DNA of 64,000 nt from a bacterium EF100-94H03 bin56. GTDB taxonomy: Bacteria > Pseudomonadota > Alphaproteobacteria > SP197. Of this stretch, positions 2,558 to 48,060 are shown one piece after another. Within the stretch, counting starts at the first letter, position 1; each line of letters starts with the position of its first letter. The translations under genes were made by a program, and so were the position numbers. Under the pieces are notes generated by a model. The model worked only from the letters and a program-made list of their open reading frames with translations, did no database searches and was not told the origin of the DNA. The stretch lies in contig MPMV01000001.1 of the NCBI GenBank assembly GCA_002238685.1, positions 124,001 through 188,000 of the forward strand. The letters run 5' to 3'.

Positions 2558-3313
2558 TTGCTCTGCGGGACTTCTAGCTCATCTTGGGAATCCCAACTTT
2601 TTCCGACGCGGTCTTCGGACTTCCAAAGTCTCCCGGCCGCAGTTCATCAAGCCGGTCCTCCGAATGGGGAGAGGCCCCGACTGGAACCAGAGCCGACCCG
2701 CGCTCTCGCCCAGCCCAGAGCGAAGAACCGGCACTACAAGGGGTCGATCACCCCTTTCGAGCTCTGCCACGTCACGCTCAGTCTCGGCGTGGCGGACAGC
2801 CTCTGCCGCCAACTCGCCGGGGCGACCCTGCTCTTCGGAAACGGCCGGCGCGTTCCCGTGGAATTCGACTTGGCCACCTACCGGCGCCTTCTCGCCCTTC
2901 TCCCCGACTGCCGGAGGGACACCAACTGGAAGACCTACCAGGAAAACGCGTCCATCAACCTCCTCCACGAGGCCTTCACGTACGACATCTTTCGCAAGTT
3001 CCCCGAGGTTCCACGGGTAGGAACGGCGGGAGAGCCCCGCTTCGAACTCACCATGGAGGGGTCACTCCTCGCCTTTGCCCATTCCCGTGATCAGTCCGGC
3101 GCCACACATGATGGGGCCCACCTTCCATTCAAGACTGCAATGGCGATCATTCGCCGGGTTTCTCGCCGAGGAGAGACAGTGATCCTTGATCTGCTGGCAG
3201 CTGGCACACAAGCCGGGAATGCTTGTTGGTGGAGGCTGGCCAACTTTGTTGCGCATGACCTTGATCAGAGCCAGGTCATCATGTCCGGTTTGTTTCTGAA
3301 GTTGCAAATGTAG
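2558..3313 (+). pseudogene. Chimeric broken ORF with an oxygenase fragment
   Basis: An open frame of 251 codons made of unrelated pieces. Codons for about residues 120-190 match the catalytic-domain start of the oxygenase at 4370-5578 (NWKTYQENASINLLHEAF and onward). The preceding stretch (about residues 60-115, with LLFGNGRRVPVEFDLATYRR) is unrelated to that oxygenase and faintly recalls small accessory proteins of IS66-type elements. The last 60 codons are also unrelated. No sensible start signal is seen. I read it as debris from rearrangement rather than a functional gene. Whether the fused frame is expressed cannot be judged here. Confidence 0.6.
2919..3126 (+). repeat. Direct repeat, copy 1 (oxygenase fragment)
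   Basis: 208 bases align without gaps to 4998-5205 at a constant offset of 2079, with about 18 mismatches by hand count (around 91% identity). Both copies read in the same coding frame. The toxin-antitoxin pair lies between the copies. Confidence 0.9.
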
Positions 3314-3977: not shown

Positions 3978-4369
3978 GCATGTCTTGCGGCCCGACGTCG
4001 CACGCGGGGGACAATGCGCCCGCCGGGAAGTCGAGTTCATCCCCACCACCGGCAACATTGTCCGGGCTATGGTTCCGAGAGCCTGGTGGCTGACTGCGGA
4101 AGGTCCTGTGATGTGTGTCCTGCCTGGTGTCAGGATGTCACTCACTGATGCGAGTGAAATCGCTCCGTGACGGCGTTGAACGTGGAAAATTTGTCCCCTG
4201 ACTGGCAGAGTGCGGTGTCTTTGCCGTTGCCGATTGCCGTCGTGTGGGCAGGTCTTCCGGATCAACAGGATGGGGTTGAACGATTTCCCAGCGGGACACG
4301 ATCCGGTCACGTTCCTGTCTCTGGTCGTGCGCATGCCGCGATGCCGAGTGTTGCCAGAGGATTTGAGGG
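3978..4369. other. Intergenic stretch without a gene
   Basis: 392 bases between the toxin and the Rieske-type gene. No frame looks protein-like and no RNA gene is evident. It should contain the promoter of the oxygenase homologue, but no clear -35/-10 pair was found by eye. Confidence 0.5.
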
Positions 4370-5578
4370 ATGGACAAGAGACTTCTTGAACTGATGACCC
4401 GCTCGGAACGAGACAGGGTGATGGCGCCGATCGGCGAGGCCATGACATTGCCTGCCAGTGCTTTCACGGACGGCGCATGGCATGCGCTTGAGGTGGAACG
4501 CGTCTTTGCGCGGAACTGGACCGCCGTCATGTTCGCCGTGGAGCTCCCGTGCGCCGGCGATGCACGGCCGTTCGATCTCTTCGATCAGCCGCTGCTGGCG
4601 GTCAGGGGGAGCGACGGGACGTTGCGTGTGTTTCACAACATCGTCCCTTATGACGGCTGCCTGGCCCTGCTGCGTCCGGCAAGGGGGCTGAAGTCCATCA
4701 ACACTCCCTACCATGGTCTTCGCTACGACCTGAGCGGCCGCCTCGTGGGCGCCCCCTACTGGGATGGCAATCCCCAGGCCGGCCCCGAGGCCCTGGACGG
4801 ATGGCCACGCGATCTCGTCGAGGTTCCCAGCGCCGAGCGGTTTGGCACCCTCTTCATCAATTCGCAAGGCGGAGCACCGGACATCGATGAGTGGCTGATG
4901 CCCTGGCGCCGCCTGGTGGGCGCCGACTTTGCCGTCGACCGTCTGGTTCCCGCCCGCGACAGCGACGGACAACCGCTCATCGAACAAAGATCCGTCAACA
5001 CCAACTGGAAGACCTACCAGGAGAACGCGTCCATCAACCTCCTCCATGAGGCCTTCACGCACGACATCTATCGCAAGTCCCCCGAAGTTCCGCGGGTAGG
5101 AGCAGCCGGAGAGCCCCGCTTCGAACTCACCATGGAGGGATCACTCCTCGCCTTTGCCCATTCCCGTGAGCAGTCGGGCGCCACCTATGACGAGGTCCAC
5201 CTTCCCTCGGCCGGTCACGACATCGGCATCGTGCCGGAACGGGGCTACTTCACGACGCTCTATCCCAATGTCAACATTCCGCTGCTCGACACCTTCGCCA
5301 AGATCAACATCGCCCTTCCGCGGGGGCCGGATGTCACCGAGCTCAGGCACCTGAGGTTCTATTCTCCCGAAGCGCTCGAGGATCCCGCCTTTCAGGACCA
5401 GGAACGGCAGGTGCAGCAATTGTTCGATGTCGTCCACGCGGAAGACAGGATCATGATCGAGGCCGTCCAGGCCGCCCGCCGCAGTCCGGTGTGCCGCCAG
5501 CATTACTACGCTCCGTTCTGGGACAGGCTCCACCATCGACTCAACCAACTCGTCATGGCGGATATGGAGCGTACCTGA
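4370..5578 (+). CDS. Rieske-type oxygenase homologue lacking cluster ligands
   Basis: A 402-residue homologue of the alpha subunit of ring-hydroxylating oxygenases. The N-terminal half has the shape of a Rieske domain, but the cluster ligands are mostly gone: the usual C-x-H-R-G reads VPYDG (V92, Y94), and the usual C-P-Y-H-G reads TPYHG (T112), leaving only H115. The catalytic domain starts at NWKTYQEN with H226 and H231 as likely iron ligands and D359 (AEDRIMIEAVQ) as the third. So the mononuclear iron site may persist while the 2Fe-2S cluster cannot form normally. No reductase or ferredoxin gene is adjacent. The substrate is unknown. AGAGG lies about 9 bases upstream of the ATG. A partial copy of the gene lies 2.1 kb upstream. 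Confidence 0.85.
   Translation: MDKRLLELMTRSERDRVMAPIGEAMTLPASAFTDGAWHALEVERVFARNWTAVMFAVELPCAGDARPFDLFDQPLLAVRGSDGTLRVFHNIVPYDGCLALLRPARGLKSINTPYHGLRYDLSGRLVGAPYWDGNPQAGPEALDGWPRDLVEVPSAERFGTLFINSQGGAPDIDEWLMPWRRLVGADFAVDRLVPARDSDGQPLIEQRSVNTNWKTYQENASINLLHEAFTHDIYRKSPEVPRVGAAGEPRFELTMEGSLLAFAHSREQSGATYDEVHLPSAGHDIGIVPERGYFTTLYPNVNIPLLDTFAKINIALPRGPDVTELRHLRFYSPEALEDPAFQDQERQVQQLFDVVHAEDRIMIEAVQAARRSPVCRQHYYAPFWDRLHHRLNQLVMADMERT
4998..5205 (+). repeat. Direct repeat, copy 2 (inside the oxygenase gene)
   Basis: The in-context copy of the 208-base segment also found at 2919-3126. Here it codes for about residues 210-279 of the oxygenase homologue, covering the two iron-binding histidines. 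Because it lies in the intact gene, this is probably the parent copy. Confidence 0.9.
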
Positions 5579-5605: not shown

Positions 5606-7771
5606 TCAGGAAAGCCGGCGAAGACGACTTCCATCGGGGTCGGCCATCAGGAGGTGCGGGCTTGCGGATCCGATCCGCACCTCATGGCATGCCGGGTGCG
5701 GAGCAACGGAGCCGGTGAGGAGATTGATCGAAAGAACCGGGTGACCGGACCAGGGCACATCAAGGGCTGCCGACTGGTCCACCGGCACCACCAGCACCAG
5801 CGGGTTGCCGGCTTCCCTCATCTCCAGATGTCGCCCGCCCGCAAGATCCCTGGCGGTCCCGGGCACAATTCCGTCGTCGACGATGTCGAAGGCCGCATGC
5901 ATGTGGCGCACCACGTGGTAACCGGGACGCGGGTTGCAGAGACGATCGAGAACGCCTGACCGGGGGAAGTAGCCTCGGTCGATGTCAACCAGGGTATCGG
6001 CGAACACGGTGACATCGGCAAAGGTCATTGCAGCCGCCATTGCCTCGGCAATCCGCCTGACAGTAAGGGTATCGTCCATGACGGGGCTGGCCGGACTGGT
6101 TCCGGCCATGCGCATGTGGATGTGGGCCCTGAGGCCGAGGCCGGTCGCCACGGCGCTGGCCGCTGCCACCGTTTCCCAGACCGGCATGTCGAGGGTGAGG
6201 CGGAAGACTACGCCGGCGAGCACGCCATCGAGTTCGGGCAGCCTTGCGATCGCGGCGATTTCTTCCGTGTCGCGGACGAGAAATCCCTGGTTGATCGAAT
6301 GGTAGTACTTGCCGGCTTCGGCGCGTTGCTCGTCGATCGAGCGCAGGCGCGACAGCACGAGGGGGACGCCGGCACTGGTGGCCGCAGTGGCGATGGGGCC
6401 GATGTCTCGATCGATGACATCGGGATTGATGGCAACGTCCCACGTCCGGAAGAGGTCGCGGTGGGATTTGAGGCGTTCCATCAGTTCGCCGGTGGGGGCG
6501 CCGAACGACATGAGCGTGAAGAGGTGCCCGTGCTCCGCCAGAAGGTTCATGCGTGCGACATTCGCCTCGTTTACGAGATCGCGCACCGGCACCCTCAACG
6601 GCCGCACGGCCATGTCCCACAGGGCGAGCAGTGGGTAGTCGTTGCGCACGGTCTTGCGATCAAACTCGTCGAGGCCACCGGTGGGAGGTATCTCGACGAT
6701 CTCCATCCAGTTGTGGCGCATGTCGAACCCGAATGCGGCGCGCCGGTTCTGGCGCGGATGGATGGCGGCGAGACGATGCTCCGGCCGTGTTGCCGCCGCC
6801 GCACCGACGTCGAGAGTGTTCCCCCACGTGCGCACGATCTCGACCATGTGCCCGTCTTCGTGAACATGGCAGATCGCATAGCCGAGCTTGGGCCGGTCAT
6901 TGCGTCCGAATTCGGTTTCAGCGCCAGGCGAGGCCCTCAGCATCTCGGCGTAGTCAAAGCGCACGAAGGCGGTCGACGGCAGGATGTAGCAGTCGGTCGC
7001 GTCAAGCCGGAGGTACCAGAAGTTGTGGACATGTCCGGCGATCAGGGCTTCGACCTGGTGTTGCCGGGCGAGCTCGAGGAGCCATGAGCGACCGGGTTCA
7101 CCGATGTTGTCATAGGTCTCTTCCTCGTCTGCCTCCAGAAGACAGGGCGGATAGTGACTGAACAGGAAGATGCGCCGGCCGTGGTGGCTGCGGAGATCGG
7201 CCTCCAGCCAGGAGCGCTGGCGTTCCTCGGCCTCCAGGTGCGAGTTGATGACCTGGGCGTTGATAATGACGAAGTGGCACCCCTGATGATCGAACGACGT
7301 GTACTGGTCGCCGAAATGGTGTTGCCACAGGGAAAGATGATCCTCGTTGATCCGGGCAGCAGGTGCCCAGTCGTTCGGCTTGTCACCGACATCGTGATTG
7401 CCGGGCGTGAGCCAGGCAGGGTGGCGAAGGGTATCGAACACCTCGAAGAAGCGCCGGGCCGCATCGGCATAGAGTCCGGGGATCGCCGGAACCGGGTGGA
7501 CGATGTCGCCGACGTGGACGACAAAGGCGAGGTCCCGCGCATTGAGATCCCGGATGACGTGGCGCATGCGACGGTTGGCAAGGCGCCCTGATTCGAAGGG
7601 CGAATTCGTCTCGTCCTCACCCTGATTGACGTGGGTGTCGGTGATGATGCCGAAACTGAAGAGATGTCTGCCAGGGGCAGTGGATCGATTCCGGGGCCCG
7701 GTCAAGACAGTGCTCCAGTGAAGTTGGTAACGTGACGCGCCAATCTGAGTCGTTTTTTGACCGCCGGTCAA
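5606..7771 (-). CDS. Metallophosphoesterase with a large C-terminal extension
   Basis: A 721-residue protein. Residues 38-290 form a calcineurin-type phosphoesterase with all expected metal motifs: TDTH (D45, H47), VGD (88-89), GNHD (124-127), FSH (H206) and GHVH (246-249). Such domains hydrolyse phosphomono- or diesters with two metal ions. The remaining 430 residues are not standard: a region of alternating strands and helices resembling a TIM barrel (DVAINPDVIDRDI onward) and a final beta-rich part. This extension more than doubles the usual size. No signal peptide is visible. The ATG at 7771 lacks a good ribosome-binding site, so the start is uncertain; residues 1-36 may not be translated. 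It is divergent from the Upp-like gene. Substrate unknown. Confidence 0.85.
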   Translation of the reverse strand: MTGGQKTTQIGASRYQLHWSTVLTGPRNRSTAPGRHLFSFGIITDTHVNQGEDETNSPFESGRLANRRMRHVIRDLNARDLAFVVHVGDIVHPVPAIPGLYADAARRFFEVFDTLRHPAWLTPGNHDVGDKPNDWAPAARINEDHLSLWQHHFGDQYTSFDHQGCHFVIINAQVINSHLEAEERQRSWLEADLRSHHGRRIFLFSHYPPCLLEADEEETYDNIGEPGRSWLLELARQHQVEALIAGHVHNFWYLRLDATDCYILPSTAFVRFDYAEMLRASPGAETEFGRNDRPKLGYAICHVHEDGHMVEIVRTWGNTLDVGAAAATRPEHRLAAIHPRQNRRAAFGFDMRHNWMEIVEIPPTGGLDEFDRKTVRNDYPLLALWDMAVRPLRVPVRDLVNEANVARMNLLAEHGHLFTLMSFGAPTGELMERLKSHRDLFRTWDVAINPDVIDRDIGPIATAATSAGVPLVLSRLRSIDEQRAEAGKYYHSINQGFLVRDTEEIAAIARLPELDGVLAGVVFRLTLDMPVWETVAAASAVATGLGLRAHIHMRMAGTSPASPVMDDTLTVRRIAEAMAAAMTFADVTVFADTLVDIDRGYFPRSGVLDRLCNPRPGYHVVRHMHAAFDIVDDGIVPGTARDLAGGRHLEMREAGNPLVLVVPVDQSAALDVPWSGHPVLSINLLTGSVAPHPACHEVRIGSASPHLLMADPDGSRLRRLS

Positions 7772-46675: not shown

Positions 46676-47899
46676 TCAGGAGGCGATGCGGTCAAGGTAC
46701 CAGTCGGTGAAGGCTGCCGTGTAATCCTCCAGGGTCGCATAGGGCCCGGGTGCGTAGCGCGTGGAGTTCACGCCCTTCTGGTTGTCGATGATGATCTTCG
46801 TGTCCTCGACGGTGGTGACGTCCCACATCCAGATCAGGCGCTTGAGGTCAACGTCCCGGTCCAGGTCGGCATCGGCGCGAACGTGCCAGGTCACGAGCAC
46901 CTCGCTGAATTCCGGCGTGACCGGCGTGAAACGGAACATCGCGAGATGATCGGCACACAGGTAGGCATAGGACAGCGGGCCGAGTGTGAAGGCGGTCTCT
47001 CCACCATCCCAGTGTTCCAGGGCGCCAAGCAGGGGAGCGACGGGTTGTCCGTCCTCCGAAAGCGTGAGATAGCCCTCCCTGATGGGCTGGCGCCATACGC
47101 TGTGGGGCTGGCGCGGGTCACCGATGTCGCCATTTGTCCAGCCCACGGGGTGGCCGAGCTCTTTCGTCTTCTCGGCCCAGGCATCAATCACCGGACGGTA
47201 GGTCTCCGGGTCGCGGTCGTGCGCCTTCACGTAGGCATTGACCATCGTGTACTCGGGGTGTGCCGGTGAGCAGTGATAGCACTCGCGGAAGTTGTCGACG
47301 ACGAGTTTCCAGTTGGCGTAGGTCGGATAGATCTTGCGGTGCACGATCTTCGTGTCCCTCAGGTGATGCAGTCCGGCGTAGGTGTCGAGCAGGTCGGCAA
47401 CTCCGCTGAAATCCGCGACATTCGGATCATCGGCGCCGGCCAGACAGATGAAGATGAGACCGTGGGCCACGCGGACCGAGCATCCATGAAGCGGGTAGTC
47501 CGTCTTGTTGAATCCCTCTGGCATGGAACGTGCGGCAATGAGTCGGCCGTCGAGATCGTAGGTCCAGGCATGGTAGGGGCACACGAGCTTGCCGGCATTG
47601 CCGCGTTCCTCGAGGCAGATGTGGCTGCCGCGATGACGGCAGACATTGAAGAAGGCGCGGACCATGTGATCACGGCCGCGTACCAGGATGATCGATTCCT
47701 CGCCGACCCGGTAGACAAGGTAGTCACCCTTCGAGGGAATCTCGCTCTCGTGGGCGACATAGAGCCAGGACCTGGAAACGACCTTCTCCATGTCCCGTCT
47801 GAAGATCCCGGGGTCCCGGTAGAACGGCTGTTCCAGGGTGAAACCGGATCGTTGCCGGGCGATCAGGTCATCCACCGCAGGGATGTCGTGTGGCTGCAT
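46676..47899 (-). CDS. Rieske oxygenase alpha subunit, glycine betaine/quaternary amine type
   Basis: A 407-residue Rieske non-heme iron oxygenase. The cluster motif is intact: C87-x-H89 (CRHRG) and C107-x2-H110 (CPYHAW). The catalytic domain has VDNFRECYHC..AHPEY (H209, H214). It resembles GbcA-like and other quaternary-amine demethylases more than aromatic dioxygenases; stachydrine demethylase is an alternative. Start at 47899 with GGGAGGTGAC just upstream. The required reductase gene (gbcB type) is not adjacent. The nearby ProX-like binding protein supports a betaine link, by inference. Confidence 0.88.
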   Translation of the reverse strand: MQPHDIPAVDDLIARQRSGFTLEQPFYRDPGIFRRDMEKVVSRSWLYVAHESEIPSKGDYLVYRVGEESIILVRGRDHMVRAFFNVCRHRGSHICLEERGNAGKLVCPYHAWTYDLDGRLIAARSMPEGFNKTDYPLHGCSVRVAHGLIFICLAGADDPNVADFSGVADLLDTYAGLHHLRDTKIVHRKIYPTYANWKLVVDNFRECYHCSPAHPEYTMVNAYVKAHDRDPETYRPVIDAWAEKTKELGHPVGWTNGDIGDPRQPHSVWRQPIREGYLTLSEDGQPVAPLLGALEHWDGGETAFTLGPLSYAYLCADHLAMFRFTPVTPEFSEVLVTWHVRADADLDRDVDLKRLIWMWDVTTVEDTKIIIDNQKGVNSTRYAPGPYATLEDYTAAFTDWYLDRIAS

Positions 47900-48060
47900 T
47901 GTCACCTCCCGCCAATGCTGCAATCTACCCCAACTCGCGCCGGGACGTGAAGTCCGCTGGCGCACCATGATGGGAACATCCGGGAGCGGAGCGATTCGCA
48001 GAGCAGCGTTTCGGGACAGGCGTGGCTCACGTCATTCCCGACAGGATTGAAGAAGGGAGC

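Follow-up and report, generated by a model that had tools for sequence, protein, structure and literature searches.

A conserved family of Rieske-oxygenase-fold proteins predicted to lack the Rieske cluster and to retain the mononuclear metal site

The window analyzed here, a 64,000-nucleotide stretch of a bacterial contig, carries at positions 4370–5578 of the plus strand an open reading frame that begins with ATG and encodes 402 amino acids followed by a stop codon, in keeping with the initial annotation of the gene as intact. Residues 209–398 of the protein match the Pfam family Ring_hydroxyl_A above its cut-off, and residues 49–130 give a match to the Pfam Rieske family that is weak, yet also above cut-off. 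The features of the locus are as follows.

4370–5578, plus strand: gene of the Rieske oxygenase (RO) fold, predicted to be cluster-free, 402 aa (intact open reading frame, Pfam, AlphaFold2 (AF2) model)
4643–4660, plus strand: first former ligand loop, V92-P-Y94-D95-G-C97, canonically C-x-H-R-G (alignment, codons)
4703–4714, plus strand: second former ligand loop, T112-P-Y-H115, canonically C-x-x-H; Cys lost at 112, His115 kept
5036–5038, plus strand: Asn223, where canonical ROs have the bridging Asp/Glu (E205 in CntA) (alignment)
5045–5047, plus strand: His226, predicted mononuclear metal ligand (alignment, 44/44)
5060–5062, plus strand: His231, predicted mononuclear metal ligand (alignment, 44/44)
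5444–5446, plus strand: Asp359, predicted carboxylate ligand of the facial triad (alignment, 44/44)
46676–47968, minus strand: canonical RO with all four ligands (internal contrast)
2915–3130, plus strand: debris left by another copy of the cluster-free gene, aa 209–280 (85% protein identity)

Residues were assigned from an alignment of the family with canonical sequences, namely CntA, the other RO of the window, and paralogues from the same genome. Three of the four residues that ligate the [2Fe-2S] cluster in ROs are replaced, as had been proposed, and the codons can be read in the DNA: Val92 is GTC (4643–4645), Tyr94 is TAT (4649–4651), and Thr112 is ACT (4703–4705), with His115 (CAT, 4712–4714) alone retained. 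The residues of a 2-His-1-carboxylate site, also reported earlier, are present as His226, His231, and Asp359. We found one loss that had not been described, that of the bridging acid: the residue three positions before the first triad His is Asn223 rather than Asp or Glu. A shifted alignment was considered and rejected, as the alignment is free of gaps around both loops and the AF2 model can be superposed on CntA.

The other Rieske gene of the window, previously placed at 46676–47899, does encode all four ligands, but it is on the minus strand, with an open reading frame extending to 47968. The genome (4.53 Mb in 102 contigs) holds about 30 further RO genes. All 30 distinct further genes that we retrieved keep the C-x-H ... 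C-x-x-H arrangement, making the window gene the single full-length exception among the Rieske genes found. A set of about 31 canonical RO genes in 4.5 Mb looks unusually large.

Conservation was counted over 44 full-length family members. Position 92 is Cys in 26, Val in 17, and Gly in one. Position 94, the first ligand His of canonical ROs, is Tyr in 42 members and position 95 is Asp in all 44, figures that, like that for Pro93, are inflated because the patterns used to scan the genome collection (FHN[IV][VC]PYD and [ATS]NWKT[YV][QY]E) partly select for P93-Y94-D95; Thr112, His115, Asn223, His226, His231, and Asp359 lie outside these patterns. Cys97 is found in 40/44. No member has the second ligand Cys at position 112 (0/44), where Thr, Val, Ala, Ser, or Gly stands instead, which disposes of the concern that homologues might all retain the ligands. 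His115 is present in all 44. Position 223 is Asn throughout the family (44/44) and Asp or Glu in CntA and every aligned canonical paralogue. The triad of His226, His231, and Asp359 is invariant, and so are eight other residues of the catalytic domain (Glu227, Tyr234, Arg242, Tyr273, Glu358, Gln367, Trp384, and Asp385). The marks of the family as a whole are Tyr94, Asp95, loss of the second Cys, and Asn223.

The initial annotation had suggested looking for the Val/Tyr/Thr set in homologues. Two orthologues, at 92–93% identity, have the identical set together with His115, but Val92 is not diagnostic of the family. The window gene is under purifying selection, with an omega of 0.11–0.22 over its length in comparisons with one partial and five full-length orthologues. 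Since these close orthologues match, omega is low, and the second Cys is gone from every family member, the substitutions are not sequencing errors. Omega is similarly low in the Rieske half (0.10–0.26) and the catalytic half (0.10–0.19), and because the structural model also matches over the whole chain, the former Rieske domain is most simply seen as still folded and constrained. Broken copies and gene debris, nearby and in relatives, could be taken as signs of a decaying gene or of a sequencing or assembly error. We give this explanation practically no credence: intact orthologues, the omega values, and identical substitutions in independent genomes all speak against it, and the conserved clade and omega together rule out the pseudogene or error reading.

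The debris within the window is 91% identical in DNA (2919–3126 versus 4998–5205). A second fragment of a broken copy, aa 1–95, lies just upstream of the window (G000 C48:123275-123549), and both fragments are 85–88% identical to the window gene. Upstream DNA occurs in two contexts, one shared by this fragment, G007, and G006 and the other by the window and G001 (the side of the PIN gene), with the changeover between the two about 5 bp ahead of the ATG. At a contig end (locus L100, G000 C58:15666-15791), 127 bases are identical to window positions 4369–4495 with different upstream sequence, and this match may therefore represent a third copy, or a variant from another strain that was dropped where the assembly branched. 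Tandem or additional copies in relatives are broken by frameshifts or stops (L011/L020/L027 in G004 C10, L021 in G005 C8, and L016/L039 in G011 C8). The family gene appears to have been repeatedly duplicated and lost.

The AF2 model, computed with the family alignment as input, has a pLDDT of 94.2 and a pTM of 0.92. In the PDB it is closest to CntA and stachydrine demethylase, with matches that cover nearly the entire chain. For CntA, Foldseek gives an E value of 8e-27 and VIA a Z of 35.5 with an rmsd of 2.9 over 344 residues, spanning residues 6–400. The model, VIA, and Pfam thus agree on the two-domain fold of an RO alpha subunit. CntA and the stachydrine demethylase Stc2, both group V ROs, share with the window protein the full-length fold (Z 33–35), the facial triad, an NWK...N motif, and a size of about 400 aa. 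Unlike them, it lacks three of the four cluster ligands and the bridging Glu, is only about 19% identical, and belongs to a family with no reductase neighbor among the best 25 of 78 neighboring families or in a crude motif screen. The curated GbcA model for group V ROs scores it at 46.7 bits against a cut-off of 670. Alpha subunits of ring-hydroxylating dioxygenases (biphenyl, naphthalene, benzoate, HcaE) resemble it in their two domains and mononuclear site but differ in having cluster ligands and a bridging Asp, and its NCBIfam scores fall far below the respective cut-offs. It would be misleading for genes like this one to be annotated automatically as ordinary alpha subunits of this kind.

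A search of 60 related genomes with the protein, made without motif selection, returned orthologues at 93, 92, 67, and 65% identity, together with remoter relatives at 34–38%; all full-length relatives translated from this search have the same losses. Scanning GTDB genomes gave 53 loci, two of them canonical (L075, L076), leaving about 51 in the family. These are labeled Alpha- and Gammaproteobacteria, Nitrospinaceae, Myxococcota, Chloroflexi, Latescibacterota, Neomarinimicrobiota, Acidimicrobiales, and Nostoc, although some labels may be wrong because most of the genomes are metagenome bins: a ‘Chloroflexi’ locus (L044) and a ‘Gammaproteobacteria’ locus (L047) have identical motifs and matching adjacent genes. 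Isolates with the gene are Leucothrix arctica, Pseudomaricurvus alkylphenolicus, and Nostoc sp. CHAB 5844. A tblastn search of plasmids gave only matches below 30% identity, whose annotations read ring-hydroxylating dioxygenase or ferredoxin.

In a PMSF tree of 44 family and 26 canonical sequences, the family occupies one side of a single branch with a support of 100/100 and a stem length of 1.13. Profile searches of 398 Pseudomonadota genomes and the 16-genome taxonomic family, again made without motif selection, revealed no intermediates between the family and canonical ROs. Intact full-length members scored 553–578 bits and the best other matches up to 248 bits; the next-class matches listed (including L134, L135, L139, L140, L141, and L143) keep the cluster motif and a bridging Asp or Glu. 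None of the 397 further Pseudomonadota genomes in this even sample has the gene, but most genomes of the window organism's own taxonomic family have an intact, partial, or broken copy. The family is rare, widely scattered, and conserved. Our search of the open-access literature found no description of a cluster-less RO clade.

Electron transfer in Rieske oxygenases runs between subunits: an electron leaves the cluster of one, crosses the bridging acid, and arrives at the iron of its neighbor. The CntA variants E205A, E205D, and E205Q are inactive (PMC7948474). Given that the cluster ligands and the bridging acid are both missing, the cluster and its electron route have almost certainly been lost in the family. 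The earlier proposal that the protein cannot take electrons in the normal way is strongly supported, indeed beyond what was then stated, as the bridging acid is Asn in every member as well. The cluster ligands have been called an identifying feature of ROs (PMC10952381). The window protein would be an RO by descent and predicted fold and not a functional one by its defining electron-transfer features.

Could the protein instead act through a partner, as a non-catalytic or substrate-binding alpha-type companion of a canonical RO subunit? In five loci, four Pseudomonadales and one Myxococcota, the family gene lies directly against a canonical Rieske gene or shares 4 bp with it (L051, L054, L056, L058, and L053), and in two others the genes are one gene apart (L046, L064). 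A canonical gene lies within two genes in just 8 of about 50 loci, however, most of them in one clade, and none adjoins the window gene. This distribution makes the partner role, an option raised in the initial annotation, less likely. In addition, a purely structural subunit would not need an invariant catalytic triad and pocket, and Asn223 would block electron uptake from a neighbor's cluster by the known route. We therefore regard a partner function as improbable; the abutting genes could reflect a complex in those lineages or successive pathway steps, and not a general arrangement.

An oxygenase whose mononuclear iron is fed directly by some other external donor, such as a flavin reductase, a ferredoxin, or a small reductant, seems more doubtful still. 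Flavin enzymes of the FAD amine-oxidase or luciferase type are immediate neighbors in several loci, but they are neither conserved nor more than weakly enriched (p 0.04 and 0.23), and to our knowledge such enzymes do not donate electrons to iron sites of this kind. The best 25 of 78 Pfam families among 94 same-strand neighbors include no RO-type reductase, and a crude motif screen for linked reductases, run without a positive control, found no match among same-strand neighbors. RO reductases are often unlinked to their oxygenase genes.

The former Rieske site might also hold a different metal or cluster. Cys97 (40/44), Asp95 (44/44), and His115 (44/44), with Cys92 where present, would be the candidate ligands. 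Cys92 is absent from 18/44 members including the window protein, however, Cys97 is missing from 4/44, and few soft ligands are left, so that we consider this very unlikely. That His115 is invariant while position 112 varies fits a structural contact with Asn223 of the neighboring subunit rather than iron binding.

The invariant triad and the further invariant residues of the catalytic domain argue for catalysis, and the window protein is probably an active metalloenzyme. The reading that we favor, with some reserve as it draws on alignment and model, is a cluster-free mononuclear metalloenzyme that uses no electrons from a Rieske center and probably relies on substrate electrons or performs non-redox chemistry. 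Two options of the initial annotation, a metal-binding non-oxygenase and a different electron source, are compatible with the present evidence. The protein would fold as the usual head-to-tail alpha3 trimer and bind Fe(II) or another divalent metal at His226, His231, and Asp359, and the reaction would need no electrons from a reductase. The former cluster loops (Tyr94, Asp95, and His115) should face Asn223 of the neighboring subunit and may have taken on a structural or second-sphere role in the active site.

Extradiol ring-cleavage dioxygenases use a metal held by a 2-His-1-carboxylate site without a cluster or reductase, and an alpha/beta hydrolase is often encoded alongside them. Their folds are unrelated to that of the window protein, which in the model has the RO fold from end to end and neither a VOC nor a LigB fold, and a functional likeness is conjecture. 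Alpha/beta hydrolases account for 13/180 genes within two genes of a family gene, always on the same strand, and for 2/467 genes further away (Fisher p 2.6e-6, in a test that ignores shared ancestry). In 8 loci a metallo-beta-lactamase (MBL)-fold hydrolase is encoded within two genes of the family gene, and just one of these loci also has an alpha/beta hydrolase. Hydrolase co-location is limited to about 40% of family loci; neither type neighbors the window gene. Such neighbors would suit an enzyme whose product is hydrolyzed, as when extradiol cleavage is followed by a C-C hydrolase, although this too is conjectural.

Within the favored reading of a cluster-free metalloenzyme, the most likely reaction would be O2-dependent cleavage or oxygenation with the substrate supplying electrons, as in extradiol dioxygenases, and the product would then be processed by the hydrolase of either fold encoded beside many family members. 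Substrate-driven O2 chemistry in particular has perhaps somewhat less than an even chance of being correct. A non-redox metal-dependent reaction would be the next most likely, with a hydrolase, lyase, or isomerase built around the former iron site. An enzyme of this kind would fit a family that has shed every electron-transfer component and kept the triad, and it would also fit the invariant acid/base candidates Glu227, Tyr234, Arg242, and Tyr273. Hydrolases are already encoded beside the family gene in many loci, however, and we know of no Rieske-fold enzyme with hydrolase, lyase, or isomerase chemistry; both points count against a non-redox enzyme, which we hold to be rather unlikely. More tentatively, the whole scattered branch may have shed its electron-transfer parts and turned into a self-sufficient Fe(II)/O2 enzyme powered by its substrate, in which the cluster loops, through Tyr94, Asp95, and His115, were recruited in trans to the active site of the neighboring subunit.

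Possession of the cluster and of the bridging acid is regarded as defining a Rieske oxygenase, and here a stable clade appears to have lost both and kept the catalytic iron site. The clade could serve as a natural experiment on the chemistry open to the mononuclear site without external electrons, a matter of general mechanistic interest.

Two further neighborhoods deserve mention. A calcineurin-like phosphoesterase of 721 aa with a long unannotated C-terminal part is encoded at 5606–7771 of the window (minus strand), and such a gene is also found near the family gene in L025, L062, and L074, even beside 35%-identical members. In Leucothrix and in a bin of Methylobacter, the family gene is followed by one and the same two-gene arrangement (162 aa and 423–426 aa; L043 11239-13011 and L038 2452-4229), of which the L043 pair has no Pfam match.
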